Source: a virus
Length of the DNA: 38,182 nt
Virus record (IMG/VR): IMGVR_UViG_3300044641_000708
Coordinates: 1 to 38,182 of that record
Reading direction: 5' to 3' (one strand)
This document shows positions 13,783 to 34,492 of the stretch, piece after piece (within the stretch, counting starts at the first letter, position 1; each line of letters starts with the position of its first letter). A program made the position numbers and the translations under genes. Below the pieces are notes generated by a model, which saw nothing but the letters and a program-made list of their open reading frames with translations, ran no database searches and was not told the DNA's origin.

Positions 13783-16700
13783 ATGGATGTCTTGATGCCA
13801 GATGGCACCACGATTACTGGTGTTCCAGAGGGAATTACGCAAGCTGAATTGCTTGCTCGATATAACAGATTTTCAGCACCAAAGGCTCCGGAAGCTCCTG
13901 CCGGCCTTGCATCTATTGCACCACGCGCACCTAACACCATGACTGCGGATGAATACCGCGCTCAAGTTGCCGCTAGGGATGCACAGGGATACGAAAGAAC
14001 CGCAGGCGGTACAGCCAAGGATGTCGGTATAACATTGTTAAAGGGCGCTATTGGTTTGCCTGAAGCAATGGTTGGTATACTTGATCTACCAACAATGGGT
14101 TATGCCGGTAAGCTCCTTGAGCAAGCTGGGTTTAAACCTAAAGAAGCTAAAGAAGTTCTTGACACATATCTGTCTGAAGCTCAACAAGCGGCTAATCGCA
14201 AGGTTAGAGAATCCCAAGGTTTCTTGCCAACAGCGGCGGCCGCTCTTCAAAACCCAAGCACGATCCTTACAACAGCTGGCGAGTCATTGCCACAAATGAT
14301 TGGCGGTGCTGGTATTGCTCGAGGATTACTAAAAGTTGCTCCTGGAATGGGATTTGTTGGAGCTGGTGCCGCAGGCGAAGGCTTGATTGGTGCTGGTTCT
14401 GCTGCAGAACAAATTCGTCAGGAATCCAAAGACAAGTTGTTGTCTGGTAAACAAGTTATATCTGCTGTTGGCTCTGGCGTTGGTACAGCCGCCTTTGGTG
14501 CCGCTGGCGGTAAGTTAGCTAACAAGCTTGGACTTGATGACATCGATACACTGTTAGCCGGCGGTGCCAGCCAAGCCGCTGGACAGGCCAAGCAGGGCGT
14601 TGGTAAATCAGTAAGAGACTTTGCTTTGAAGGCCACAGGATCAGGCATCTCTGAGGGCGTGTTTGAAGAGTTACCACAGTCAGCGCAAGAGCAGATGTGG
14701 ATGAACTACGCCTTGGATAGGCCACTCATGGACGGTGTTGCTGAAGCATCTGCCATGGGCATGTTGGCTGGCTTGGGAATGGGTGCTGTCGGTGGTGGTA
14801 TTGGTAGCCTGCGTAAGACTGGCAAACCACAAAGCGGCCTTGAGAGTTTGCTTGCTGAGAACAAACAAATACTTGGAGTTCCTCCAGATGAAGGAGCACC
14901 GGCGGGAATAGCTCCAGCACCTACAACTCCCCCGTCTGACAGCCCAGTTGTTGGCACTACCACTGTTAATGTCGATGGAACGCCTGTTACCAAAATCACC
15001 CGACTAGATGGCAGTGTAGATATTGATGGTGTACAGGTTTCACCTCCAACTGTAGTTGCGGAGCCAGTAGTAGCCGAACCAGTTGCTGAAGACCAACCCC
15101 CAAGCACTGAGTTGATCCAGCAAGTTTTGGATGAAAGCCAAGACATAGGCCAGATGATGGGTGAGCTTGAGGGTAAACCCGCAGAGCCAGCTGTAACAAC
15201 ACCTGTAGCACCTGTTGCCCCTGTAGTAACTGGTGGCCCAACTGCGCCTAGAGTAACTAAACCAGAGGAGCCTGCGCCAGTTACTCCTGTTGAACCAGAA
15301 AAAGTTGGTGCTATTGAGAAAGCTCCAGAAGTTGCAGTTCCCGAAGTCACAACCCCAGAAGTGACAGCTCCCGAAATTACGGGTGGTCCAAAAGCTCCTA
15401 CTGGCGGTCCATCTACGCCTACAGTAACCAAGCCAGAAGAGCCTGCAAAAGTAGCAGAGCCGGAGGTTGCTACAGTAACACCTGTTACGCCAGAAAACCC
15501 AGTTCCTGCTGGATTTAGATATACGTTGTTAGAAAGCCCAGCTTACGAGGGTCTTGAGCCATTGTCTTTAGAAGACGCAGACTTTGAGTTGGAAGCTTTA
15601 GAAGATAGCGCCAATAAAGGCAGGATGACTCCAGAGCGATTTGCTCAGTCTGAAATTGGCAAAAGGCTAGACACTCCACAGATAATGAAAATTAATCAGG
15701 GTTTAAAAACCGACCCTGTTGGAACCATTAAAGCATTGCGTATTAGTCTTGCGCCAGCGCAAGCTCCTGCGGCACCAGAAGTTACGGGCGGTCCTACACT
15801 ACCAGTGGTAGAGAAAGCTCCAGAAGAAGTAACGGCAGAAGAGCCTGCTCCAGAAGTTACTGAGACAGTTCAAAAACCAATTGCCTTTACTACATCTAAA
15901 GGCAGTGAGTACGTTGTTGATGACGAAGGCAGAACGTCAAGGACCAAGAAGTCTGAAGGTAAAGGCCAAGGAACAACATATCCTCCACATACAGTTTTGT
16001 ATGTAAATCCTGGTGATAACACATCGATTCTGAGCGATATGCAAGGCGGCATGGGTGATAACTCAGTGCGTCTTGGCTACATCAGTGATAACAAGTTTGT
16101 ACCAATTCAAAGAATTGCTGAGATACCAAAGTCTGTTACGCCTGTAGTTGGTGTATTCAACAAGAAAACCAATCAACAAGTTGGTCTGTATCAAGCTAAA
16201 GCAGAACCAGAAGTTGGTTTGCATCCAGTTGAAAAGCTGTACAACGATGATGGCACAGCAAGCACACACATTGGTAATGCAATTGTAGATATCAAGCGCA
16301 AAGAGCCTGACACTACCACTGTTAAGGAGCCATCAGGAGAAAAGCCCTCAGAGGAGAAACCTACTGAAGGTGAGGCCAAGCCTACAGGCGGTCCTTCTGC
16401 GCCCGCTGGAGGCCCATCTAAGCCAGTTGGCGAGGCTCCTACTGGCGGTGCAAAAGAGCCCAAAGCTCCCAAGCCACCCAAAGTAGAGCTGACTGAAGAA
16501 GAAAAGAAAAAGGCCGAGGAAGATAAAGCCAAGGCTGCAGAAGAGAAGGCAAAAGCCGAAGAGCAAAAGAAGAAGCTTGAGGAATTTAACAAGCAGCCTA
16601 TGAAGGTTGCCATGGAAGAGGGTAATGCCGATCAGGTTTCAACTCTGCTGTACGGCAACGCTGTAGCAGAAGACCTTTTCCCAATCATCTTCCCTGCAGA

Positions 16701-19700
16701 AGGTTTGTTGCGTATCCCTGTTGACTTGGCCAATGTTTCTAAGATTGAAGAGGCGCTAACTAAGTTTGGCTTCAGGATCACTGATCGTTCTATACCTGCC
16801 ACTACGGATGATCCATCCTACACAGGCCCAGAGCGCGTCACTATATCAGCGTTATACAAGCCTGAGAAAATAAGTATTCAAGGTGGTGGTGCTGAGTTTG
16901 TGAAGAACCGCAAAGGTAAGGTTACAGCACCCCCAGCTCCTAAAGACGCTACAGACAGTCAGATCTCTAAGATGTTGTCGGCTGTTGCCAAAGACACGTT
17001 ACTTGACATTGACTCAAACAAAGACAATTCGTTTGGTGCAATGATGTACAAAGAGGGCATCGTAAGCTACGTCATGCCGGCGTCTGATTACCTGCTAAAG
17101 GCTATTAAAGAAAACAGAATAGTTCGTGTATCGGACAGGACTGGTAGCCGTCAAGCCATTAAGATGGCCTTGGAAGAGGGTAAGCAAGAGGAAATACAGA
17201 AGCTCTTGCAGAGTTATGTTGATGCACTTCAGGGCTTGCAGGCGGTCTTTGACTCCCATGCCCGTGTTGGCGAACTAGATAAAGCGCTAAGAGCAAAATA
17301 CATCAAGGATGCGGAAGCATCTAGTTCGTCTTCAAAGTACACCGAAGATGGATTAAATCTACGTAATAAGTTATCAGCAAATGCTTTAGTTAATCTGTTT
17401 AACAAAATGGATAACTTGTTTGCGGCTAATGAAGATTCAACCGATCAAACAAATCGTATCGTCAAGAAAGAAACCGAAGTACCACCAGAGCTTGGCAATA
17501 TTGTTCGCCGTGGTATGCGTGACCACCGACAAGGTCGTGACGTTGATACAAATGATTTTGTAACTACGTTTGGGTTCTTTCCAGGCGGTATTGACTTTGG
17601 TAACTGGGTTAATCAGACTGAGCGAGCAGCTCACCTTAACGCCATCTATGACGCCATGTATGACTTGGCCGATGTCTCTGGCATCAATCCAAAGATGTTG
17701 GGATTGGGCGAGAAGCTCAAGATGGCTATCGGAGCGCAAGGTCGTGGCGGCAAAACTGCAGCTCATTACTTCCCCAAGCTTAACGAGATCAACCTGACCA
17801 AAACCAAAGGTGATGGATCACTTGGACATGAGTGGCAGCACGGTTTAGATTGGAACCTTCAACAGACGCCAAACGGCAAATTGTTAATGTCGGGCACAGT
17901 CTCACGCCTTAAGAAACAGATTGAGATTGAGACAGTAGAGAACTACCTAAAGGGTGTTCTGCGTGATACAGCTGGTAGCACAGACAACCGTAACCTTCCT
18001 CCAAAGAAAGCATTTTTTGCTGCCATAACAAATCAAGGTTATTGGGGTATAGCCCCAGTTATCCGAGATTCAGATAAGCAAACGCAATACTTTAAAGATG
18101 CACAGCAATTAGACCAAGATGAAGGCAGAGAGCCACGCTATTGGGGCACAGACGTAGAGCTGTTGTCTCGCGCGTTTGAGGCCATGCTGTTTGACGCATC
18201 GAAGGGTGGTAGCCCATACCTTGTTGGACCTACCGTTGCTGATGGATACATCTCTAAAAAGAATGGTTATGGCGGCACCATTTACCCACTAGGTAAAGAG
18301 CGTCCAAAGCTAAATGAGGTCTATAAGCAGATGCTTACCCAGATTGACCCAGAGACTCTGGCAGTCAAGACCTACAAGATGGACACCAAGATTGTCGAAA
18401 TTGAAGAGCTGGGATATGCAGTTCTAGATCAGTACAACTTGGATTCAGGTACGGCTGGTGGTCTAGTTTGGTTTAAGACTGAAGAAGAAGCTAAACGTAT
18501 CAAGACAGCGCGTGATGGTCAAGAGCGAGTCTTAACGCCAACTGACATGCAGATGAGCAAGGTCAACCAACACATCATTGACATGGCCAAGCGCATTGAC
18601 GGCATCATGGAAGAAATGGGTCTGTTCAAGTGGCCTGAAATTAAGAACGGCTCAATGGCTGAGTCCATGTTCTATCACATGCGTCAAGGCTGGTGGCCAA
18701 AAAACAACCGCGAGTTGGCTGAGTACGGCATTAAAGCTTACTTACAGAAGCCAGAGTTGCTTGGCTTTAACCCTGCCAAAGACCAACGTGAGATTGAGAA
18801 GTACAAGATTGCTGACTTTGAAGGTGATCGCGTTAAGCTTAAGCAAACTCAAGAAGACTTTGAAGCTGCAGCCACACGTTACATCAGCCAAGTCATTACT
18901 GATATGCGGGCGCAAGGTTCAGATACAAAGGCTATTTACGAATCCATTGTTAACCTGTATCAGAACCAACCCACACTGGATGTACAGTCTGTACTGAGTA
19001 AGAGTAACAACGCCTACTCTACGCCCTTACCTATTGGCTTCTTGGCCGGTATGCTGGCGCGTGTTAAGTCCACTACAACAGTGTTAGACCCAACTGGTGG
19101 TAACGGCATGTTGGTGGTGGCGGCTAACCCGCAGAACGTCACAACGATAGAGTTAGACCCACACCGCGCCGAGAACATGCGTTTGATGCAGATCGGTAAC
19201 GTGATCAATGGCGATGTTTTTGAAAAATTAAAAGACCTAAGAGATCAAGAAGTTGATGTTGTCTTGGCGAATCCTCCGTTTGGAGCTTTGTCAACCCCTG
19301 ATAACGTCCCGTCTTGGAATGGTCAGACCTATAAGATTGGCACTCTGGATCAAGCGATTGCTGCCAAGTCTTTGCGCGCAATGGCTAACAATGGCCGTGC
19401 CGTCTTGATTCTTGGAGCTCACCCTAAACCTGGAACAATTACATCCACAGATCGGGTGTTCTTAAACTGGTTATATGGCAACTACAACGTAGCGGATCAC
19501 TATGAAATTGCTGGTAACTTGTATCGTAAACAAGGCGCGAATTGGCCGTTGCGCGTCTTAGTTATTGCCGGCAGAAACCAAACGGACAACGTTTATCCAA
19601 TTGACTCAACAGTTGATCGGATAACTACATTTGATGAACTTTGGAGCAGATATGTTCAAACCAGTGATCGTAGCGAACAAGTCGTGGTGGGTACCGGAAA

Positions 19701-22700
19701 GAAACAGCCAGCTACTGGCGGTGCAGATCGACCAGCCGGAGGAGTACCAACAGGCGATACGGTGGAAGATGGAGACACTGGCGCAGGAGTGGGGACTACA
19801 GAGGGCGGTGGAGTCGGCGAACAACTACCTAAAACAGGACGGGGCGCTGGAACTACCGCTGGCGGAGGACGAGGAACAGCTGGTGGAGCTGGTACTACTG
19901 AACAGCAGCCGGATATCGGAAAAGGTAAACGAGGGGGACCCAGCGGTGTCGAAGCCGGCGGAGCCCAAACTGGCGGAGTTAGCGGCGAAGGATCAGGAGG
20001 TGAACTGGGAGGACTTTCTGACCTAGACCTAGACAACATCTTTGATGATTTAGGTAAGCCAGAGAAAGTTAAAGGCGGTCCACGGGCACCCAAAGGTCCA
20101 ACTAAAGGCGCACCAAGAGCACCCAAGGGTCCTGCAACCAAAGGTCCAACAGTCATTCCAAAAGAGTTGGAAGGATTGGGACTAGAGTCATTGTTGGATG
20201 AGTTGGACGCTGCTCTAAACGGCAAGCCTACTGAAGTGCCTAAAGAAGTCACGCCAGAGGACAGCCCAGAACGTTTGGACAAGCAGGCTGATGAAGCGCT
20301 GAACCGTATTGCCCAAGATACAAAGAACACCAGTGATGACCCTAACAGTGGGATGTTCTCACGCAAGGGTGATCAAGATTACGCCAACGTACAGCCAATC
20401 ATTGAGAAGGTATGGAAAGCTGTCGGTGAAAAGATTACTGATGTAGCACAGCGTATTAAACAAGTGTATGCGTTGCTTGTTACTAAGTTTGGTGAACCCA
20501 TCAAGGCACACTTACGCACGTTTGTGGAAAGCCTACGCACCGTAATACAAAAGCGCCCCAAGAACCAGACCCCTGTCCAAGCTGAACCTATTGATACAGA
20601 GTCACGAGTTGTCTACCTTGGTAAGTCACGGTTTGCCAGCGATGGTATTTACTTACCACGCGCGCAGTCTCAACATGCTTACTCTGCACTTGAGAACCTA
20701 GAAGCACAAGTTGGCAACATTGATGAGTTTGTTGCTAGTGAGTTGGGATACCCATCAGTAGAGAAGATGGCCAAAGGATTGGCGGGCTACCAGATTGATG
20801 GCTTGGCTCTGGCTATTCAGGCTAACAAGCTAGGTAAAGGCTTCATCATTGGTGATGACACGGGCGTAGGTAAAGGCCGTGCAGCTGCTGCAATGATTGT
20901 CTGGGCTAAGAAGAACGGGAAGATCCCAATCTTCGTGACTGTTAATGATTCAATGTACACATCCATGTACGAGGACTTGATTAACATTGGCCACGAAGAG
21001 TTCAAGATTGGCATGACCAATAACAACGCCATCATTCAACGCAATATGGGTGGTGGCAAGATTAAGACTGTGTTTGAGAACAAAGGTAAGGCCGGTCCTG
21101 AGTTGATGGCTTACATCAAAAAGAACGGCGAATTGCCAAAGGGCATGGATGTTCTGTTCACAGCTTATTCACAGCTTAACGGTGGTGCTGGCTCGCCTCA
21201 ACGTCAAGACGCTATTGCATCTTTGGTTGCCCAAGGCAAAGCTGTTTTGATTATGGATGAAGCCCATAACGCAGCTGGTATTCCGTCTGATTCGGACTCT
21301 AGGGGTCAGAACGCATTCTTTATGTCATTGCTAACGGGCATAGATTTGCTTGGTAAAGATGTAGAGACTCCAGAGGACTGGGTACCACCACCAGCGGTTT
21401 ATTTGTCTGCTACGTTTGCAAAGCGCCCAGACAACATGCCTCTGTACATCCATACCAACTTGCGGTATGCGGCCAACACTCCAGAAGAGCTGACCAATTT
21501 GTTTGGTAAGGGCGTTAAGACTGACGTCCTGCAACAGGTTTCCTCTGAGATGTTGGTAGAGTCCGGCTCCATGCTACGCCGCGAGAGATCTTATGAAGGC
21601 GTGAAGATGGACTTCGTCACAGACGATGCAAACGCACCACGCGATATTCGTGAGGTTGACAAAGTTACAACCATTCTTAGGGCCTTGGTTAACGCTGACC
21701 GTGCTCTTAAAGAGTGGTCAAAGGATCCTTCCAATCAAGCTTTGATCATTAACACGCTTGGCCCACCTGGCTCCATGATGGGTAAAGAAGGACCAACTGC
21801 TTTTGCTGAAGCTAAAGGCAATCCATTCACCTCTGTAGTCCACAACTACATTGGTACGCTGCTCCTGTCTGCTAAGACTCAGACTGCCGTAGACATGGTC
21901 ATTGACAAAATGAACAACGGCGAAAAGGTTGTTGTTGGCTTGCAGAATACCAATGGTAGTGCGCTAGATGACTTTGTTGCAAAGAACGGCATAAAGATAG
22001 GCGATGAGATCCCTAACTTTGGTTGGCAGACTTTGCTTCAGCGAGCGATTGATTCGACTAGAAAGATCACGCTGAAGTCTGCTACTGGCAATCCAAAAGA
22101 CAATGTCAAGGTAGATATTCCATACTCTTTGATGCCTCCGTCAGTCAGGGCAGGCTACGACAATTTGGCAGACATGGTCAAAGACTTCCAGTCTGATCTA
22201 CCTGTAGCGCCTATTGACTACATGCGTACACAGCTAGAAGGCAAGTATGTGTGGACAGCTGACGGCAAGACTAACGTTGGTGATGCACCTCCGCCCGGAG
22301 TTAAAGCTAGACGTTTGGTGGTCAAAGAGATTACTGGTCGTAACACAGCTGTAGATTACAGCGGTGATAAACCCAAGTACATGGCTCTAAGCAATCCAGA
22401 GCGCACCGAAATGATCTCTTCATTCCAGAACGGTGAAGAGTCAGAGAACGGACCGATTGATGTATTGATCATTAACTCAGCTGGTGCAACTGGTATTTCG
22501 TTACACGCATCTACCGAAGCTTTTGATCAGCGTCCACGCCACATGGTTGTGCTCCAGCCTCATGGAGACATCAGCGTATTCATCCAGTTGTTGGGTCGTA
22601 TCCACCGCACAGGTCAAGTCGAGTGGCCTTCCTTCACGATGTTGGCTACCGGCATTCCAGCCGAGCGCCGCATCTTGGCTATGCTTCGTAAGAAGTTGTC

Positions 22701-25700
22701 AAGCTTGAAGTCCAACACATCGGGTGGCTCTAGCAGTACCAAGGTGAACGGCGTTGACTTTATCAATAGATATGGTGACGTTGCTACTGCCGAGTACTTG
22801 AACGAACACGCTGACATCCGTGCATTCTTAGCCCAGCCTTCGTTTGCAGATCCCGCAGAAGCCGCTGGTACAGACTTGGCTCACAAAGCTTCTGGCACAG
22901 CTGGTTTATTGTCTTCTGCAGATCAGCAAGAGTTCTTTGATTCTATTGAAGCTAGTTACTTGGCCGAGATTGAACTGCGTAATGCCACAGGAACAAACGC
23001 CTTAGAGCGCCGTGTTCTGCCGCTTAACGCTGAGATGATCAAAGAGAACCTGATCGAGGAAGGCTTAGACAGTACTAACCCGTTCTTGTCTGATGTGGTG
23101 ATGGCTCAGTTCAATGTGGATGTGATTGGCTCAATCCCAACACAGCAGAACATTGAAGATGATATTGCCAAGGCTTTGAATGGTCGTACAGCGCAACAAG
23201 TTGTAGAAGAGATTGATACTGATCTCAACACAATTTTTGTTGAAGTACGTAACCAGATCATTCTAAAACAGCAGGCTTTGAGTGCGTCTATTGCTGCGCC
23301 CGGAGCTACTGAGAAAGATATTGCAGAGTTAACAAAGCAAAAAGAAGCTTTGGACATACAGTTTGCCACTCTTGGTGAGCGCAGAGAAAAAACTTTAAGT
23401 GCCTTAAGGAGTCAGTTTGCCATCGGTACTGGCTTTGATTCATTCATGATTAACAACGTGCCAGCAGCTGCTGTTGTGATCGGTGTTAAGGTGGACAAGG
23501 CTAGGATTGGTAAGTCAAAGACTGGCAACCCATACTCACCTTCTAACTTCCAAATCATCCTTAAGCGCAACATCCCAGAGGGCCGTGTTGCTCCTACGTT
23601 GGCTACCCTTGAAGGACCAAGCATTGAGCGAAGTATTCCAATGCGTAGACCTCCACTGGATGAATGGTTTGCTCTGAAGTCAGTGACTGGCGGTCGCACT
23701 ACTCGTTACATTGCGCTTGGTAACATCCTGAGAGCAGCTCAGTTGTTTGACAAAGATGGTGGAGAGATCGCCAAGTTCACACTGCAGAATCAAACAGAAG
23801 AAGTCTCTGGCGTGATCATGCCTGTGAAGTACCAGCCTGTTGCTATCAGTGATCAGCCTGTGCGTATGCGTAACGCTAATGCTGCAGTGCAATTTGCATT
23901 TGCTGCTTGGCGTGAAATTGTAAGCAAAAAGTATGACGCCACTCAGATGGAAGAGTACAAAGATCGTGCAGACATTTTGCAACAGTTCCTGCTTCCAAAC
24001 CTGCCAAGCTTTGCGCCATATGCAGAAAACACAAAGAACTCTTACACCACTAAAGTTCTCCGTGGTGCAAATAATATTTGGACATTGACGTTGGACAACT
24101 ACAGGCCGACTGGCTTTAGGTTGTCTATCTCTGGTGATGCACCAAAGAAGTTTGTAACGTCTATTAAGGGTGCTACGTTAGCCAAGAAGAAGGGTGGCCC
24201 TTATGAAATGTCACCACGGGATTTTATTGCCGACCCAGTAATTCTCACTAACCTGATTAAAAACCTGCACAAGCAGTACCCTGCCACAGTGGAAGCTGAC
24301 GCTGGTCAACTTGCCCGTGAGGTAATGAAAGTTGAGTTCGATGATTCCGAGTCCAAGAAGGGTATGTTCTCTCGCGCTATACCCGAAGGCGGCCAGAGCG
24401 TTGAGGATGTAGAAGCTCAGATCAAACCCATCAAGGGTATCAATGTTAGAGTGGTTCAGTCTGCTGACAACTTGCCTGATGCAGCTGCTCCCGCTGATGT
24501 GGAGGGCGCTTGGTTCTCAGGTAATGTTGTTTACTTGGTGGCTGATAACCTACCAAACGCCCAGCGTGTTCAAGAAGTGCTGGCGCATGAAGCAATTGGT
24601 CATGCCGCATTAGAAGGAATGCTTGGCAAAGACTTGATGGACGTCATGGTCAAGAACGTTCAAGAGTTGGAGAAGACCTCTAAGGTTGTTCAGGGTATTG
24701 CTGCACAAGTAGACCGCACACAACCAGGCTTATCACCCGAGCGCCGTGCTAAAGAGATCGTGGCCATGATGGCAGAGCGCGGAATGCAAAACAGCATCAT
24801 CCAGCGAATCATCAAAGCTGTGCGTGGTTGGTTGAGAAACTCTGGATTTACTCTGCAGTTCTCTGACAACGACATTTTGGCGTTGCTTAAGAACGCTGAA
24901 ACGTTCTCTGGTGAGATGGCAGACGCTACAGGCGAAGCTTTGTACTCCAGAAACTTCAAAGGTGGACCCGGTGCGTTGTCTACATGGGAAGCGGCTGACG
25001 ATCTGAAGTTGACAGACACACTTGTTTACAAGTTTATTGATAAGCACATTGACACTAAACGTGTTATAGAGGCCATCAAGAATGAAGCTGGCCGTATTGA
25101 AGATGCGTGGAACCCGTACCAGAAAGAAGAGTTGTTCCACAGCAGAACGGCCAAGCAGACCAAAGACTTCCTAATAAAAGACTTGCGTCCTCTGCTTGAG
25201 GATATGGATAAGCGTGGGGTTACGTTACAAAACCTTAATGATTATCTTTATAACCGACATGCAAAAGCTCGTAACGCATTCATCCTTAAGCGTGATCCCA
25301 CTAATCCTTCTGGATCAGGCCTCACCGAAGATGAGATAAATACTTACATGGATGCTTTGGATAAAAACCCAAAGTTAAAAAAGACTTACGAAGAGATTGC
25401 GGAAAAGATTGACAAGATTGTTAAAGAGACACAAGAACTGTTAGTGTCATCTGGCTTGGAAAAGCAAAGCACCATTGATAAATGGCGTGAAAGCTTGCCG
25501 TTCTATGTGCCTTTGAACCGTGAGCCTGATGAGCTTGACTTTGTTAATGCAAGCAGTGGCATGGGTCAGGGCTTTGGCGTTAGAGGTTCATTCACCAAAG
25601 CCGCAGTAGGTTCGTTTAAAACTGTTAGTGACATCGTTGGAAGCCTTGCACTTGCGCGCGAACGTGCCATTGTCCGTGCAGAGAAGGTGCGTGTTGGCCG

Positions 25701-27678
25701 TGCGCTGTATGCGTTGGCCATCCAGAATCCTAATCCTAACTTCTGGAAGCCCATCAACCCTGACGCTATCAAGAACAAGACCAAGTTGATTGAGGAGTTG
25801 GTTAGCATGGGGATGAGCCCCAATGATGCAAACAACATCTTCCAAGAGCCCAAGACTGGTTCTATTGACTCGAAGACTGGTTTGGTTAAGTACCAAGTCA
25901 ATCCAAACATGCGTAACTCGCCTAACGTGTTGGCGTTGCGTATCAATGGTGAAGACCGCTATGTGTTCTTTAACCCGGGCAACCCAAGCGCCAAGCGCAT
26001 GGTGGAAACCTTAAAGAACGTTGGCATCAATGACTTAGACGAAGTACTTGGTAGCGTTGCTGAGATCACTCGCTTCATGGCGGCGGTTAATACCCAGTAC
26101 AACCCTGTGTTCGGTGCGTGGAACTTTACGCGAGACTTACAAGGTGCGGCGATTAACCTTTCAAGTACGCCTCTTGCGAATAAAAAGGGTCAGGTCATTG
26201 CTGACTCCATGATAGCTGTTAGAGCCATCTATCGCACTTTGCGCGGTAAGCCAGCCACAACTCCAGAGATGCAGAAGTGGATGGACCTGTTCGAGAGATT
26301 CCAGCTGGCTGGTGGCCAGACGGGATTCCGCGAGCAGTTTAGCCGTGGTCAGGGCAAAGATACGATTGTTGCCCGTGAGATGGCGCGTTTGAGCCGTAGC
26401 AACGTTAAAAAAGCCGCCTATGCTGTTTTTGATTGGCTGTCTGACTATAACGATGCACTAGAGAATGCCGTCCGTCTGTCTGCATTTAAAGCTGCGTTAG
26501 ATATAAAAATGTCTGAAGATCAGGCAGCAAGTTTAGCTAAGAACTTAACTGTTAACTTTAACCGTAAGGGTGCAAGCACTACAACGATTGCCGCCTTGTA
26601 TGCGTTCTTTAACGCTGCTGTCCAAGGTACAAAGCGTTTGGCTGAGACACTGTTCACAAAAGACAAGACTGGCAAGATCAAGTTAAGCTCCCTCGGTAAG
26701 AAGATCGTTGCTGGCGGTATGTTCATTGGCGTTATGCAGGCCGCTATTTTGGCGATGGCTGGCCTTGGTGCAGATGAGCCTCCTGAGTGGGTGAAGTCTA
26801 AGAACTTGGTCATCCCAGTAGGCGATGGTAAGTACTTGACCATCCCAATGCCGCTTGGATTTAACGTCTTCCCTAACGTTGGTAGACTGATTGCTGAGTA
26901 CATGCTGGTTCAAGCTGGCGCGATGGATGGTAGACGCGACCTTCAGACAACCATCACAAACATCTTCTCTGCAATACTTGGTTCTGTTAACCCATTGGGA
27001 ACTAGCACGTTTGCTCAGACACTGGCACCAACCATTGTTGATCCATTCGTTGCGATTGCTGAGAACAGGGATGCCTTTGGACGTCCTATCTCAAGAGAAG
27101 ACAAAGCTCTTGCTCCTTCGCCTGGATATGAGCGTAGCCGTGAGAGTGCAAACTTTGTGTCCCAAGGCTTGGCTTACGCGCTTAACTTCATCACTGGTGG
27201 TGGCGAAAAGGGCATAGGCTTGGTTAGTCCTACTGCAGATCAGATCAGTTATGTGGCTGGCCAGTATGCTGGTGGTGTGGGTAAGCTTGCTATTCAGACG
27301 GGCGAATACGTCAAGAGCTTATTCACTGGTGAAGATGTAGAGACTTATCAAATACCAGTAGCAGGCAAGCTCTATGGCGACATCAATACGCCTGCAGCTA
27401 TCTCTGGTGTGTTCTACGAAAACATCAAGGTAATGTCCAACCACGAGCGGATCATTAAAGATATGAAGGGTAAGGGTGTAGAGGATTACTACAAAGAATC
27501 ACCTGAAGCCAGACTATGGCGGCGCGCTAACTACGTTGAGAATGAAGTTGCTCGCCTCAAGAAAGAGAAAAAGGCCTTGAAGGAACGTAATGCCCCCGAG
27601 GCCCAGATTAAACGCAAAGATGAGGCCATCAAAGAAAAGATGGATGCGTTTAACAAACAAGTTAGCAAGGTCCAATAA
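13783..27678 (+). CDS. Giant polyvalent protein: LPD1, adenine methyltransferase, Sno-type helicase, metallopeptidase, LPD38
   Basis: This protein has 4631 residues. Modules in order: N-terminal MPDGTTITGVPEGITQAEL motif and an Ala/Gly-rich, membrane-active-looking region (about 70-350); a Pro/Glu/Thr linker with GGPxAP repeats and a Lys/Glu helix (350-940); LPD1 (about 1235-1470) with GIDFGNWVNQTER, HEWQH at 1349-1353 and ELLSRAFE at 1459-1466; an N6-adenine methyltransferase with DPTGGNGM from D1769 and NPPF at 1830-1833 (motif I before IV); a Gly-rich linker; a Strawberry-notch-type SF2 helicase with DDTGVGKGR (K2364), DEAH 2492-2495, SAT 2542-2544 and QLLGRIHRTGQ 2935-2945; a second metallopeptidase-like segment, HEAIGH 3602-3607; and an LPD38-like end (about 3740-4630) with hydrophobic spans near 4311-4328 and a terminal coiled coil. 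P1 DarB and related proteins are ejected with DNA and counter restriction; the same role is inferred here. The ribosome site AAGGGG lies just upstream. Confidence 0.9.
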   Translation: MDVLMPDGTTITGVPEGITQAELLARYNRFSAPKAPEAPAGLASIAPRAPNTMTADEYRAQVAARDAQGYERTAGGTAKDVGITLLKGAIGLPEAMVGILDLPTMGYAGKLLEQAGFKPKEAKEVLDTYLSEAQQAANRKVRESQGFLPTAAAALQNPSTILTTAGESLPQMIGGAGIARGLLKVAPGMGFVGAGAAGEGLIGAGSAAEQIRQESKDKLLSGKQVISAVGSGVGTAAFGAAGGKLANKLGLDDIDTLLAGGASQAAGQAKQGVGKSVRDFALKATGSGISEGVFEELPQSAQEQMWMNYALDRPLMDGVAEASAMGMLAGLGMGAVGGGIGSLRKTGKPQSGLESLLAENKQILGVPPDEGAPAGIAPAPTTPPSDSPVVGTTTVNVDGTPVTKITRLDGSVDIDGVQVSPPTVVAEPVVAEPVAEDQPPSTELIQQVLDESQDIGQMMGELEGKPAEPAVTTPVAPVAPVVTGGPTAPRVTKPEEPAPVTPVEPEKVGAIEKAPEVAVPEVTTPEVTAPEITGGPKAPTGGPSTPTVTKPEEPAKVAEPEVATVTPVTPENPVPAGFRYTLLESPAYEGLEPLSLEDADFELEALEDSANKGRMTPERFAQSEIGKRLDTPQIMKINQGLKTDPVGTIKALRISLAPAQAPAAPEVTGGPTLPVVEKAPEEVTAEEPAPEVTETVQKPIAFTTSKGSEYVVDDEGRTSRTKKSEGKGQGTTYPPHTVLYVNPGDNTSILSDMQGGMGDNSVRLGYISDNKFVPIQRIAEIPKSVTPVVGVFNKKTNQQVGLYQAKAEPEVGLHPVEKLYNDDGTASTHIGNAIVDIKRKEPDTTTVKEPSGEKPSEEKPTEGEAKPTGGPSAPAGGPSKPVGEAPTGGAKEPKAPKPPKVELTEEEKKKAEEDKAKAAEEKAKAEEQKKKLEEFNKQPMKVAMEEGNADQVSTLLYGNAVAEDLFPIIFPAEGLLRIPVDLANVSKIEEALTKFGFRITDRSIPATTDDPSYTGPERVTISALYKPEKISIQGGGAEFVKNRKGKVTAPPAPKDATDSQISKMLSAVAKDTLLDIDSNKDNSFGAMMYKEGIVSYVMPASDYLLKAIKENRIVRVSDRTGSRQAIKMALEEGKQEEIQKLLQSYVDALQGLQAVFDSHARVGELDKALRAKYIKDAEASSSSSKYTEDGLNLRNKLSANALVNLFNKMDNLFAANEDSTDQTNRIVKKETEVPPELGNIVRRGMRDHRQGRDVDTNDFVTTFGFFPGGIDFGNWVNQTERAAHLNAIYDAMYDLADVSGINPKMLGLGEKLKMAIGAQGRGGKTAAHYFPKLNEINLTKTKGDGSLGHEWQHGLDWNLQQTPNGKLLMSGTVSRLKKQIEIETVENYLKGVLRDTAGSTDNRNLPPKKAFFAAITNQGYWGIAPVIRDSDKQTQYFKDAQQLDQDEGREPRYWGTDVELLSRAFEAMLFDASKGGSPYLVGPTVADGYISKKNGYGGTIYPLGKERPKLNEVYKQMLTQIDPETLAVKTYKMDTKIVEIEELGYAVLDQYNLDSGTAGGLVWFKTEEEAKRIKTARDGQERVLTPTDMQMSKVNQHIIDMAKRIDGIMEEMGLFKWPEIKNGSMAESMFYHMRQGWWPKNNRELAEYGIKAYLQKPELLGFNPAKDQREIEKYKIADFEGDRVKLKQTQEDFEAAATRYISQVITDMRAQGSDTKAIYESIVNLYQNQPTLDVQSVLSKSNNAYSTPLPIGFLAGMLARVKSTTTVLDPTGGNGMLVVAANPQNVTTIELDPHRAENMRLMQIGNVINGDVFEKLKDLRDQEVDVVLANPPFGALSTPDNVPSWNGQTYKIGTLDQAIAAKSLRAMANNGRAVLILGAHPKPGTITSTDRVFLNWLYGNYNVADHYEIAGNLYRKQGANWPLRVLVIAGRNQTDNVYPIDSTVDRITTFDELWSRYVQTSDRSEQVVVGTGKKQPATGGADRPAGGVPTGDTVEDGDTGAGVGTTEGGGVGEQLPKTGRGAGTTAGGGRGTAGGAGTTEQQPDIGKGKRGGPSGVEAGGAQTGGVSGEGSGGELGGLSDLDLDNIFDDLGKPEKVKGGPRAPKGPTKGAPRAPKGPATKGPTVIPKELEGLGLESLLDELDAALNGKPTEVPKEVTPEDSPERLDKQADEALNRIAQDTKNTSDDPNSGMFSRKGDQDYANVQPIIEKVWKAVGEKITDVAQRIKQVYALLVTKFGEPIKAHLRTFVESLRTVIQKRPKNQTPVQAEPIDTESRVVYLGKSRFASDGIYLPRAQSQHAYSALENLEAQVGNIDEFVASELGYPSVEKMAKGLAGYQIDGLALAIQANKLGKGFIIGDDTGVGKGRAAAAMIVWAKKNGKIPIFVTVNDSMYTSMYEDLINIGHEEFKIGMTNNNAIIQRNMGGGKIKTVFENKGKAGPELMAYIKKNGELPKGMDVLFTAYSQLNGGAGSPQRQDAIASLVAQGKAVLIMDEAHNAAGIPSDSDSRGQNAFFMSLLTGIDLLGKDVETPEDWVPPPAVYLSATFAKRPDNMPLYIHTNLRYAANTPEELTNLFGKGVKTDVLQQVSSEMLVESGSMLRRERSYEGVKMDFVTDDANAPRDIREVDKVTTILRALVNADRALKEWSKDPSNQALIINTLGPPGSMMGKEGPTAFAEAKGNPFTSVVHNYIGTLLLSAKTQTAVDMVIDKMNNGEKVVVGLQNTNGSALDDFVAKNGIKIGDEIPNFGWQTLLQRAIDSTRKITLKSATGNPKDNVKVDIPYSLMPPSVRAGYDNLADMVKDFQSDLPVAPIDYMRTQLEGKYVWTADGKTNVGDAPPPGVKARRLVVKEITGRNTAVDYSGDKPKYMALSNPERTEMISSFQNGEESENGPIDVLIINSAGATGISLHASTEAFDQRPRHMVVLQPHGDISVFIQLLGRIHRTGQVEWPSFTMLATGIPAERRILAMLRKKLSSLKSNTSGGSSSTKVNGVDFINRYGDVATAEYLNEHADIRAFLAQPSFADPAEAAGTDLAHKASGTAGLLSSADQQEFFDSIEASYLAEIELRNATGTNALERRVLPLNAEMIKENLIEEGLDSTNPFLSDVVMAQFNVDVIGSIPTQQNIEDDIAKALNGRTAQQVVEEIDTDLNTIFVEVRNQIILKQQALSASIAAPGATEKDIAELTKQKEALDIQFATLGERREKTLSALRSQFAIGTGFDSFMINNVPAAAVVIGVKVDKARIGKSKTGNPYSPSNFQIILKRNIPEGRVAPTLATLEGPSIERSIPMRRPPLDEWFALKSVTGGRTTRYIALGNILRAAQLFDKDGGEIAKFTLQNQTEEVSGVIMPVKYQPVAISDQPVRMRNANAAVQFAFAAWREIVSKKYDATQMEEYKDRADILQQFLLPNLPSFAPYAENTKNSYTTKVLRGANNIWTLTLDNYRPTGFRLSISGDAPKKFVTSIKGATLAKKKGGPYEMSPRDFIADPVILTNLIKNLHKQYPATVEADAGQLAREVMKVEFDDSESKKGMFSRAIPEGGQSVEDVEAQIKPIKGINVRVVQSADNLPDAAAPADVEGAWFSGNVVYLVADNLPNAQRVQEVLAHEAIGHAALEGMLGKDLMDVMVKNVQELEKTSKVVQGIAAQVDRTQPGLSPERRAKEIVAMMAERGMQNSIIQRIIKAVRGWLRNSGFTLQFSDNDILALLKNAETFSGEMADATGEALYSRNFKGGPGALSTWEAADDLKLTDTLVYKFIDKHIDTKRVIEAIKNEAGRIEDAWNPYQKEELFHSRTAKQTKDFLIKDLRPLLEDMDKRGVTLQNLNDYLYNRHAKARNAFILKRDPTNPSGSGLTEDEINTYMDALDKNPKLKKTYEEIAEKIDKIVKETQELLVSSGLEKQSTIDKWRESLPFYVPLNREPDELDFVNASSGMGQGFGVRGSFTKAAVGSFKTVSDIVGSLALARERAIVRAEKVRVGRALYALAIQNPNPNFWKPINPDAIKNKTKLIEELVSMGMSPNDANNIFQEPKTGSIDSKTGLVKYQVNPNMRNSPNVLALRINGEDRYVFFNPGNPSAKRMVETLKNVGINDLDEVLGSVAEITRFMAAVNTQYNPVFGAWNFTRDLQGAAINLSSTPLANKKGQVIADSMIAVRAIYRTLRGKPATTPEMQKWMDLFERFQLAGGQTGFREQFSRGQGKDTIVAREMARLSRSNVKKAAYAVFDWLSDYNDALENAVRLSAFKAALDIKMSEDQAASLAKNLTVNFNRKGASTTTIAALYAFFNAAVQGTKRLAETLFTKDKTGKIKLSSLGKKIVAGGMFIGVMQAAILAMAGLGADEPPEWVKSKNLVIPVGDGKYLTIPMPLGFNVFPNVGRLIAEYMLVQAGAMDGRRDLQTTITNIFSAILGSVNPLGTSTFAQTLAPTIVDPFVAIAENRDAFGRPISREDKALAPSPGYERSRESANFVSQGLAYALNFITGGGEKGIGLVSPTADQISYVAGQYAGGVGKLAIQTGEYVKSLFTGEDVETYQIPVAGKLYGDINTPAAISGVFYENIKVMSNHERIIKDMKGKGVEDYYKESPEARLWRRANYVENEVARLKKEKKALKERNAPEAQIKRKDEAIKEKMDAFNKQVSKVQ

Positions 27679-33066: not shown

Positions 33067-33525
33067 ATGATCAAAATTGGAATAGACCCCGGCCTGTCAG
33101 GTGCAATCGTCATCATGGAGGACAACACTCCAGTTGAGTGGTGCAGGATGCCGACAATGAAAACTGGCTCGGCCAATCGTGTGAATGCTCCTGCGTTGGC
33201 GGCATTCATTCGGCCATCAATCTATGGTGAAGAGATCAAAGCGTATGTGGAGCTGGTGAGCAGTATGCCTGGGCAAGGTGTTGCCTCGATGTTCTCGTTC
33301 GGGCATTCGGCCGGTGTGATCCAAGGTGTGCTGGGTGCGTTTGAGATACCTGTGACGATGGTTACACCCAGTCAATGGAAGAAGCGCGCTGGTCTTGTTG
33401 GTCAGGACAAGGATGCTTCAAGGACATTGGCCATACAGATGTGGCCTAGCTGGCGCGAGTTGGATCAAAAGGGAGCTGGCCAAGCGTTTGCTGATGCAGC
33501 TCTGATTGCAGTCCACGGGGATTAA
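33067..33525 (+). CDS. RuvC-like Holliday junction resolvase
   Basis: This 152-residue protein has the RuvC/RNase H-fold acidic residues: D7 in IGIDPGLSGAI, E62 in AYVELVSSMPGQG and D143 in AFADAALIA, with the K105-K106 pair in QWKKRAG. Length and motif spacing match phage RuvC-family resolvases, which cut four-way junctions produced by recombination. It stands alone between the divergent control region and a terminator, so it is probably transcribed from the promoter at 32981-33009. Confidence 0.88.
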   Translation: MIKIGIDPGLSGAIVIMEDNTPVEWCRMPTMKTGSANRVNAPALAAFIRPSIYGEEIKAYVELVSSMPGQGVASMFSFGHSAGVIQGVLGAFEIPVTMVTPSQWKKRAGLVGQDKDASRTLAIQMWPSWRELDQKGAGQAFADAALIAVHGD

Positions 33526-33574
33526 GTTGTAGAATGGCACCGGCTTCTTTGCAGTTGCCACTCTCCTTTGTTTT

Positions 33575-33607
33575 AAGCCCCGAGCTAACCCCTTGGGGCT
33601 TTTTTTA
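33575..33607 (+). terminator. Intrinsic terminator after the resolvase gene
   Basis: AAGCCCC (33575-33581) pairs with GGGGCTT (33595-33601) around a 13-base loop, followed by an unbroken T run to 33606. It follows the resolvase stop by about 50 bases. Confidence 0.85.
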
Positions 33608-33609
33608 TA

Positions 33610-33622
33610 TTAACAGTGTTAA
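33610..33622. promoter_or_regulatory. 13-bp palindrome, possible operator
   Basis: TTAAC (33610-33614) and GTTAA (33618-33622) flank a 3-base centre (AGT), directly after the resolvase terminator and about 60 bases before the next promoter. It may be a repressor site, but short AT-rich palindromes also occur by chance. Confidence 0.3.
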
Positions 33623-33680
33623 TGTGGAAACCGGCAATAAGTACTTTTTCCCTTGCCAAGTAAAAATAAATGCAGTCTTG

Positions 33681-33710
33681 TTGACATTTGTTGATATTTC
33701 CTGATACAGT
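33681..33710 (+). promoter_or_regulatory. Promoter of the structured RNA
   Basis: A perfect TTGACA (33681-33686) is followed after 18 bases by TACAGT (33705-33710, 4 of 6). Transcription would begin at about 33717, exactly at the 5' hairpin of the structured RNA. No other gene start follows within 600 bases. Confidence 0.6.
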
Positions 33711-33716
33711 TTAACT

Positions 33717-33840
33717 GTTGCTGTCGGAGGCAATGACTTTGAGGCCGTTTACACATGCGTTCCGCTTTACCTAATGCTTTCGTGGTGAGAGATATTAGGC
33801 AAGGCTCCGACCGGACGCAGTTGTAAGCGGCTTTTTTGTT
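33717..33840 (+). ncRNA. Candidate small structured RNA with loop-bulge pseudoknot and own terminator
   Basis: An approximately 120-nt transcript would fold as follows. A 5' hairpin, TTGC (33718-33721) with GCAA (33730-33733), has an 8-base loop. A long stem then forms from GCCGTTTACA (33744-33753) with TGTAAGCGGC (33822-33831), TGCGTTCCG (33756-33764) with CGGACGCA (33812-33819), and an 11-position helix 33765-33775 with 33794-33804 (one A/C mismatch). The only large 3' bulge is CTCCGAC (33805-33811), the exact complement of GTCGGAG (33723-33729) in the 5' hairpin loop, so a 7-bp loop-bulge pseudoknot or an intermolecular kissing contact is possible. The stem ends in TTTTTTGTTTT. I recognise no known family. 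Confidence 0.6.
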
Positions 33841-33841
33841 T
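33822..33841 (+). terminator. Terminator of the structured RNA
   Basis: The 3' strand TGTAAGCGGC (33822-33831) of the basal stem is followed at once by a run of 10 T in 11 bases (TTTTTTGTTTT). It fits an intrinsic terminator ending the RNA at about 33840. Confidence 0.65.
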
Positions 33842-34262
33842 TGAGACTGGGATTGTGTGTCGGGTTAGCGCCGGCATATCTCCTAAAGAGCGAAATGTAA
33901 GTTTTGAAAACACTGCTTCATGTGAGCAGTCCCAGTCTCACCCTCCACACGTAGCCGTCAGAGCGCGTTAGCTAATGGCCTGTATGGGCTGAACTCAAGA
34001 AACACAGAACCTCGGTGTGACCCGCACCTCCTAGTAGAGTAATCGAACGGGATAAACAAGGCTGTCGTAAAGACACATACCCTAGTACGCTGGGAGTTGA
34101 TCGTTAAGGCCGGTGAAAACTGACCTTATCGGGATCTCAGGGGAGGGCGGCTTGGCTGGCCGGTAGCTCACTTAACAACTGGGCATAGCTCCTTGATAAA
34201 GAGACGTTGGTCCTTTAGCCTCCCAGTGGGGGAGGGAGGGTCAACGGGTAAGAGGGAGTTTA
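33842..34262 (+). ncRNA. Structured non-coding region, possible large RNA
   Basis: No convincing gene is present in about 420 bases, but strong hairpins are. An 11-bp perfect inverted repeat TGAGACTGGGA (33842-33852) with TCCCAGTCTCA (33930-33940) encloses a small hairpin at 33913-33929. GTGTG..GGG (33855-33864) can pair with CCC..CACAC (33941-33950), crossing the first helix. Further hairpins lie at 34014-34028, 34063-34075, 34105-34128 (10 bp, one mismatch, GAAA tetraloop) and 34206-34245. Size, phage context and GNRA loop recall large ornate phage RNAs such as GOLLD or ROOL, but no match was tested. No dedicated promoter was found. Confidence 0.4.
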
Positions 34263-34278
34263 GTTGGTAACATAACAG

Positions 34279-34308
34279 TTGACTTGTGATTGATTCATGA
34301 GTTATATT
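34279..34308 (+). promoter_or_regulatory. Promoter of the rightward small-gene operon
   Basis: TTGACT (34279-34284, 5 of 6) and TATATT (34303-34308, 5 of 6) are 18 bases apart. Transcription would start at about 34315, leaving a very short leader with the AGGAGGT site (34317-34323) before ATG 34328. Confidence 0.6.
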
Positions 34309-34327
34309 CTTAACACAGGAGGTAGGT

Positions 34328-34492
34328 ATGAACGATACGACAAAGCGTTTTCCACGCACGATGCATGAAGCGTTTAACTGTGACAGCGACCCCATCAGTG
34401 GACCATATGGTAAAGAGCCATTTTGGCCTGTGGTTGTCATTGCGATACTGGTAGTTATTGTTGGGATTGTTGTAGTCTGGAGTCGCGTATGA
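34328..34492 (+). CDS. 54-aa small membrane protein
   Basis: The short frame begins at ATG 34328, 4 bases after a near-perfect AGGAGGT site. It encodes a charged N-terminus with the FPRTMHEAF motif seen in many small phage proteins, then a single hydrophobic span (WPVVVIAILVVIVGIVVVW) ending in SRV. It overlaps the next gene by ATGA. First gene of the operon; function unknown. Confidence 0.75.
   Translation: MNDTTKRFPRTMHEAFNCDSDPISGPYGKEPFWPVVVIAILVVIVGIVVVWSRV

Follow-up and report, generated by a model that had tools for sequence, protein, structure and literature searches.

What is encoded in the ~800 non-coding bases that separate a RuvC gene (33067-33525) from a small gene starting at 34328 in a 38,182-base IMG/VR virus record, the whole of which we analyzed and refer to as the window? 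The record also carries Erf-like, exonuclease, endolysin, and head genes, and about one-third of it is occupied by a single open frame of 4631 codons (13783-27678) in which methyltransferase-like and helicase-like stretches can be recognized by eye. The initial annotation placed an undescribed small RNA in the gap. We find that this RNA is indeed structured and delimited by promoter, fold, and U-tract, but that it is not free-standing: it is the promoter-proximal unit, which we call M1, of a longer modular locus.

Promoter and fold of the first unit

A sigma-70-type promoter is present on the plus strand at 33681-33710, with TTGACA (33681-33686) and TACAGT (33705-33710) separated by an 18-nt spacer and a TG before the -10 element, and by both direct reading and a promoter scan it matches 10 of the 12 consensus positions. 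The initial annotation had proposed a consensus -35 element with a start at about 33717, a 5' hairpin with GTCGGAG in an 8-base loop, a complementary 7-base bulge CTCCGAC, a T-rich end, and the absence of an open frame inside the unit, and all of these were recovered. The predicted first base, 33717, is the seventh base downstream of the -10 element, and the open reading frames of at least 40 aa that overlap the unit (33717-33837) are confined to the minus strand. The relatives likewise have the promoter at a fixed distance from the first base that marks intrinsically terminated small RNAs: a site matching at least 9 of 12 positions, with its -10 element ending 5 to 9 nt before the first G of the RNA, occurs in 30 of 40 distinct upstream sequences, versus an equally placed site of at least 9 of 12 in 15 of 800 shuffled upstreams.

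The stretch from 33717 to 33840 folds at -52.1 kcal/mol (z = -4.48), and none of 200 shuffled versions folds as low; all elements described here lie on the plus strand. The 5' hairpin P1 (33717-33734) begins at the predicted first base with the helix GTTGC/GCAAT (33717-33721 paired with 33730-33734), and its 8-nt loop contains GTCGGAG (33723-33729). This word is the exact complement of CTCCGAC (33805-33811), the 7-nt bulge between P3 and P2, which is the sole large bulge of the structure. Fold and alignment together define the inner hairpin P3 (33765-33804) and the outer, terminator-like helix P2 (33742-33764 paired with 33812-33833), which spans about two turns and ends in CTTTTTT (33831-33837), the U-tract TTTTTT being read directly at 33832-33837. 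A GC-containing stem with a U-tract behind it is thus present in the window, but the loop is very large; the P2 helix encloses 50 to 70 nt, which is unusual for a terminator helix. A terminator scan made no call at the end of M1, because the scanner accepts only loops of 3 to 8 nt.

Because a match between an 8-nt loop and a 7-nt bulge arises at random in only 24 of 200,000 cases at this composition, the single sequence is already suggestive of pairing between the two strands. Both can be freed from the nested fold at a cost of 3.3 kcal/mol, compared with -10.7 kcal/mol for the 7-bp duplex.

Covariation of the pseudoknot

An exact search with 28 bases returned four other contigs, and relatives of the RuvC gene led to 22 loci, many with the RNA and others with a different RNA at the same place. 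A 19-base core pattern retrieved 46 stretches that gave 28 distinct full sequences, the truncated L048 being dropped; we refer to this set as class A (the class names A to D were coined in this analysis). Across the 28-row alignment the drawn structure is paired in 98.2% of 1316 cells. P1 is paired in 100% of its cells, with two-sided changes in one pair, one-sided changes in two, and two pairs invariant, and P2 is paired in 96.3%, with two-sided changes in 8 of 20 pairs. In P3, 12 of the 15 pairs are invariant, so covariation hardly tests this hairpin, and classes B and C have different hairpins in its place.

The pseudoknot is paired in all 28 distinct class A RNAs (196 of 196 cells) through seven distinct words, with two-sided changes in five of its seven pairs and 60 cells changed on both sides. 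Its covariation score is 0.707, compared with 0.228 when shuffled and at most 0.124 with slid partners. Because kinship among the sequences inflates shuffle tests, we also applied parsimony and tests that span the classes. With the pseudoknot columns removed before the tree is built, parsimony counts seven changes of word and 18 pair changes, equally on both sides. The clearest example is L013, in which a single base outside the pseudoknot departs from the window and, inside it, one pair shows a compensated change (C-G to A-U). The pseudoknot is real and backed by covariation, and the structure as a whole is well supported; the compensatory changes in homologues that had been named at the outset as a check on the fold are there.

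Relatives beyond class A and the fixed arm

The plan of M1 is preserved in relatives almost without sequence similarity. Class B RNAs (88 to 90 nt) keep P1, the pseudoknot, and P2 and have a short P3; when 10 class A rows are combined with 7 of class B and with L082 (MW202484), all 18 sequences can pair the two pseudoknot strands. A class A+B model places the RNA in 40 of 46 virus records with one sense-strand copy each, and the six second matches overlap the sense copy on the opposite strand. L023, which lies outside the model's training rows, was recovered by the model and has, by eye, a perfect new word, CGTAGTGGT/ACCACTACG. Class C is distinguished by two inner hairpins, and the commoner class D (44 stretches) has a shorter loop-bulge match plus a different extra pairing by eye. 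A second long-range pairing in class D loci L091-L134 (e.g., CACTGA with TCAGTG) appears by eye to covary.

An independent entry to the relatives used module 3 of type beta (see below) as the query, which returned 110 viral stretches; the loci listed yielded 67 distinct upstream segments, with duplicates counted once and segments shorter than 200 nt left out. A strict descriptor (a hairpin, a loop word that forms at least 6 bp with a strand inside P2, a P2 of at least 8 bp, and a U-rich end) fits 47 of these 67 segments and 0 of 67 shuffled segments. Some of the 20 failures are classes B and D by eye, and at least L108 and L160 seemingly lack M1. The matching segments use 39 distinct words, and when loops are swapped among relatives the pairing reaches its own length in 33 of 2142 combinations. 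A third entry, through the 54-aa gene downstream of the locus, found the descriptor in 20 of 26 upstreams (after 4 short-flanked loci and 2 duplicates had been set aside) versus 21 of 260 resampled by chance, a null that is higher because the stretch is 800 nt long.

Since almost no sequence is kept across the classes, shape rather than antisense pairing would be expected to matter. An antisense small RNA with a conserved seed is disfavored, as no unpaired stretch is conserved across classes. We also rejected a pairing partner on a second RNA from the phage, given one sense copy per matching virus record, and a cis target set by the loop word, given that L007 and the window have different loop words but are 99% identical in the element downstream.

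In 40 of 40 relatives measured, 21 to 26 nt (mode, 23 nt) separate the end of the pseudoknot from that of P2, although these RNAs are 90 to 134 nt long and have little sequence in common; 7 of the 47 descriptor matches, with class D words or doubtful, were left out of this count. Two turns of A-form helix correspond to about 22 bp. By this length estimate, the ~12 bp of P1 and pseudoknot lying along P2 can, with a short linker, let one molecule close. Of 47 relatives, 36 have at least 5 T among the 8 nt that follow the measured end of the helix, and 5 have only two. Judging from poor U-tracts such as those of L053 (TTTGTC), L037 (TTTCTT), and L006 (TTTTCT), termination may be weak or absent in some relatives.

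Downstream modules

Nearly always in the relatives, a structured non-coding module follows M1, usually 4 to 36 nt later. Measured from the end of P2 to module 3, the gap is 4 to 36 nt in 40 of 47 cases and 105 to 164 nt in 7, where module 2 or another module lies between; gaps of 4 to 36 nt leave no room for a separate promoter of the following module.

In the window, M1 is followed on the plus strand by module 2 (33843-33939), a closed stem GAGACTGGGA...TCCCAGTCTC around the hairpins GGGTTAGCGCC and CACTGCTTCATGTG, with a z score of -4.69 in the window and of -3.28 to -5.03 in four examples. A regular expression identified 25 distinct relatives, in which compensated stem changes are visible by eye; an early regular expression for the strand preference of the module matched 3 sequences. 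By eye, the flanks of the hairpin GGGTTAGCGCC covary and CACTGCTTCATGTG is conserved. Extra copies of the module 2 motif occur upstream of the promoter in L003, L005, L011, and other loci.

Module 3 of the window (type alpha; plus strand, 33954-34278, with approximate ends) is about 320 nt long, non-coding, and conserved in relatives, and it is probably a structured RNA, the region 33835-34330 folding with a z score of -2.07 and 1 of 100 shuffles as low. The module occurs in several types, with first letters CCGTACTCCGCACGATAGCAAG (beta) and CGTCAGAGCGCGTTAGCTAATGG (alpha), and further examples include L004:3289, L135:5535, and L034, among others; alignment across types was too loose for folding. 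Module 3 probably represents a family of large structured RNAs that is absent from Rfam. M1 classes A to D occur in varied combinations with modules of types alpha, beta, gamma, and delta. Regular expressions assigned the type of the module after M1 in 32 of 38 sequences for class A, 5 of 7 for class B, 19 of 20 for class C, and 20 of 43 for class D, and several of the 32 sequences whose following module was unmatched look structured on inspection.

The first gene after the non-coding locus (34328-34492, plus strand) encodes a 54-aa protein with a hydrophobic C-terminal half and has its own promoter-like site at 34279-34308. The protein has relatives in 32 viral loci and no match in a comparison with PHROGs. 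On the upstream side, the unit follows tRNA-Pro and tRNA-His genes in L002, and the upstream sequence in L268 resembles a tRNA end. In L006, L011, L014, and L018, the interval between the RuvC terminator and the promoter contains a further interchangeable stem, ACACGCATGGGGATTG...CAGTCCCCAGCCGTGT or a close variant of it, whose interior varies.

Novelty and distribution

Rfam 15 at gathering score gave no match in the window; across 12 relative loci the only matches were two tRNAs in L002, and 15 further loci gave none. A scan of 33500-34450 at a lax E value returned only subthreshold matches, none of them over 33717-33829. Across the window, these 27 relative loci, and the lax scan, M1 thus falls in no known family, as the label undescribed had implied. 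A literature search, with most subscription papers and all preprints outside its coverage, found no description of an M1 RNA, and M1 and its non-coding locus seem undescribed.

The only named phage records with the unit are MW202484 (L082) and MW202545 (L268), both from Manatee Spring, which we take to be a freshwater spring. Most of the sequences come from metagenome contigs. From these two records and the general source of the collection, we infer that the carriers are many uncultured, mostly freshwater bacterial viruses. A match in Pseudoalteromonas phage PHS21 was dropped, as the stretch folds weakly (z = -1.69). A bacterial home was suggested by the class A pattern in one genome contig and rejected, since the pattern there lies apparently within coding sequence and the rest of the unit is absent. 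A model search of 388 genomes of that contig's class at an E value of 1e-4 gave no matches, with no positive control among those genomes, and a search of plasmids with one class A query also gave none.

A proposed mechanism and rival explanations

The promoter match, the fold, the covarying pseudoknot, its fixed distance from the U-tract, and the order of the modules are all observed, and we build on them a reading in which we place about as much confidence as doubt: that M1 is a pseudoknot-clamped terminator unit, which would give rise to a compact phage RNA and to metered read-through into the modular non-coding locus. In this proposal, 33717-33837 would be the leading unit of a phage locus for non-coding RNA and would have a sigma-70 promoter of its own from which it is transcribed. 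During transcription P1 would fold first and P3 next, and the strand 3' of P3 would then pair with the P1 loop to form an intramolecular pseudoknot. By keeping the two halves of P2 close together as the 3' half emerges, the pseudoknot would allow this two-turn helix to close beside the U-tract despite the 50 to 70 nt that it encloses. At the stop-to-read-through ratio that we envisage, most polymerases would stop at the U-tract, releasing during infection a compact RNA with both ends in helices, and those remaining would continue into modules 2 and 3, whose short distance from M1 leaves no room for separate promoters. A bolder claim, which strikes us as possible but doubtful, is that M1-M2-M3 represents a new modular class of phage non-coding RNA in which M1 serves as a terminator gated by the pseudoknot and acts on the polymerase that transcribes it.

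We consider it unlikely that M1 is instead the 5' domain of one long structured RNA of roughly 560 nt (M1-M2-M3), similar to GOLLD or ROOL, with the U-tract serving as a linker or as a partner of the P2 base. Consecutive modules on the same strand with short linkers, the pairing of M1 classes A to D with several module 3 types, and the position behind tRNA genes in L002 would all suit such an RNA. However, sequence-unrelated classes retain the U-rich tail, as expected of a terminator, and the independent exchange of modules speaks against tight packing between them.

Distinctly unlikely, in our estimate, is a role of M1 in cis control, either as a conditional terminator or attenuator for modules 2 and 3 (responding to a ligand, a protein, or the state of translation) or as a put-like modifier of polymerase. 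M1 stands at +1 and directly 5' of the same modules in most relatives, at a constant distance between pseudoknot and U-tract, and there are precedents: fluoride riboswitches join a pseudoknotted aptamer to a terminator (PMC11077080), and the put RNA of HK022 exerts its effect on polymerase in cis (PMC9378689). The pseudoknot and P2 are nevertheless compatible, leaving no evident switching strand, while the conserved unpaired core expected of a ligand pocket is absent and the sequences of the pseudoknot, P1, and P2 are freely variable.

Pairing of loop and bulge between molecules, giving dimers or rings like those of phi29 pRNA or the ROOL and GOLLD cages, appears improbable to us. The self-matching loop and bulge in every copy would also allow homo-oligomers, and the covariation is equally compatible with an intramolecular and an intermolecular duplex, but the constant two-turn arm and short linker suit fold-back in one molecule and the bulge directly adjoins P2. 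The fixed arm of 21 to 26 nt together with the single sense copy per virus record favors intramolecular pairing.

A chance match, a DNA-level element, or a protein-coding sequence is almost certainly wrong: both named records carry a hypothetical CDS annotated across the unit (UOF77725.1 in MW202484 and UOF78434.1 in MW202545), but the helices covary on the plus strand, with G-U pairs included, and the rarity of a chance match (24/200,000), the covariation of the pseudoknot, and the descriptor result (47/67 versus 0/67 shuffled) all contradict it. The protein-coding reading was rejected on the covariation of the helices, and UOF77725.1 and UOF78434.1 are probably not real genes, illustrating that gene callers put hypothetical genes over such non-coding loci. 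For M1 as a pseudoknot-clamped terminator unit, the fixed distance between pseudoknot and U-tract leads to the prediction that termination can be driven or gated by RNA as it folds outside the polymerase.

Comparison with known RNAs

Our comparisons with known RNAs draw in part on four papers (PMC12286853, PMC4604425, PMC9378689, and PMC11077080). The self-cleaving pistol ribozyme resembles M1 in having a 5' hairpin, the loop of which takes part in a pseudoknot with the junction of two additional stems. In pistol the partner of the loop is the junction at the left (5') shoulders of P2 and P3 (PMC4604425), whereas the M1 partner lies on the 3' side, between the 3' strands of P3 and P2, and on this account of pistol the difference in topology drawn in the initial annotation stands. 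The helices of M1 moreover show free sequence variation, and we saw no conserved bases that would form a catalytic core.

The HK022 put RNA is located at the start of a phage transcript, a position like that predicted for M1. It is highly structured, as M1 is, and suppresses pausing and termination in cis; it is described as ~70 nt with two stem-loops and bases critical for activity, with no mention of a pseudoknot (PMC9378689), whereas M1 comprises ~120 nt with a covarying pseudoknot and its own U-tract. The fluoride riboswitch also has a pseudoknotted domain near an intrinsic terminator, but its pseudoknot and terminator overlap (PMC11077080), whereas the helices of M1 are compatible. M1 is without an Rfam match, which separates it from pistol, the fluoride riboswitch, and phi29 packaging RNA alike.

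The packaging RNA of phi29 has an essential domain of ~120 nt and a loop-loop pairing whose sequence varies between phages, and M1 resembles it in its length of ~120 nt and its sequence-variable loop pairing. M1 differs in belonging to an early or recombination gene region and in its fixed arm, which suggests intramolecular folding.

GOLLD and ROOL are known large structured phage RNAs whose role is unexplained. The M1 locus is comparable to them in being phage-encoded, structured, and non-coding, sometimes near tRNA genes, with a variable 5' part and pseudoknots. It differs in that neither the window nor the 27 relative loci compared match the GOLLD or ROOL family models, or any other family covering the locus, in Rfam, and in being assembled from interchangeable short modules, the first of which ends in a terminator-like helix. 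The M1 locus adds to these RNAs another group, found on many contigs of uncultured aquatic phages and headed by a small 5' unit with strong covariation.
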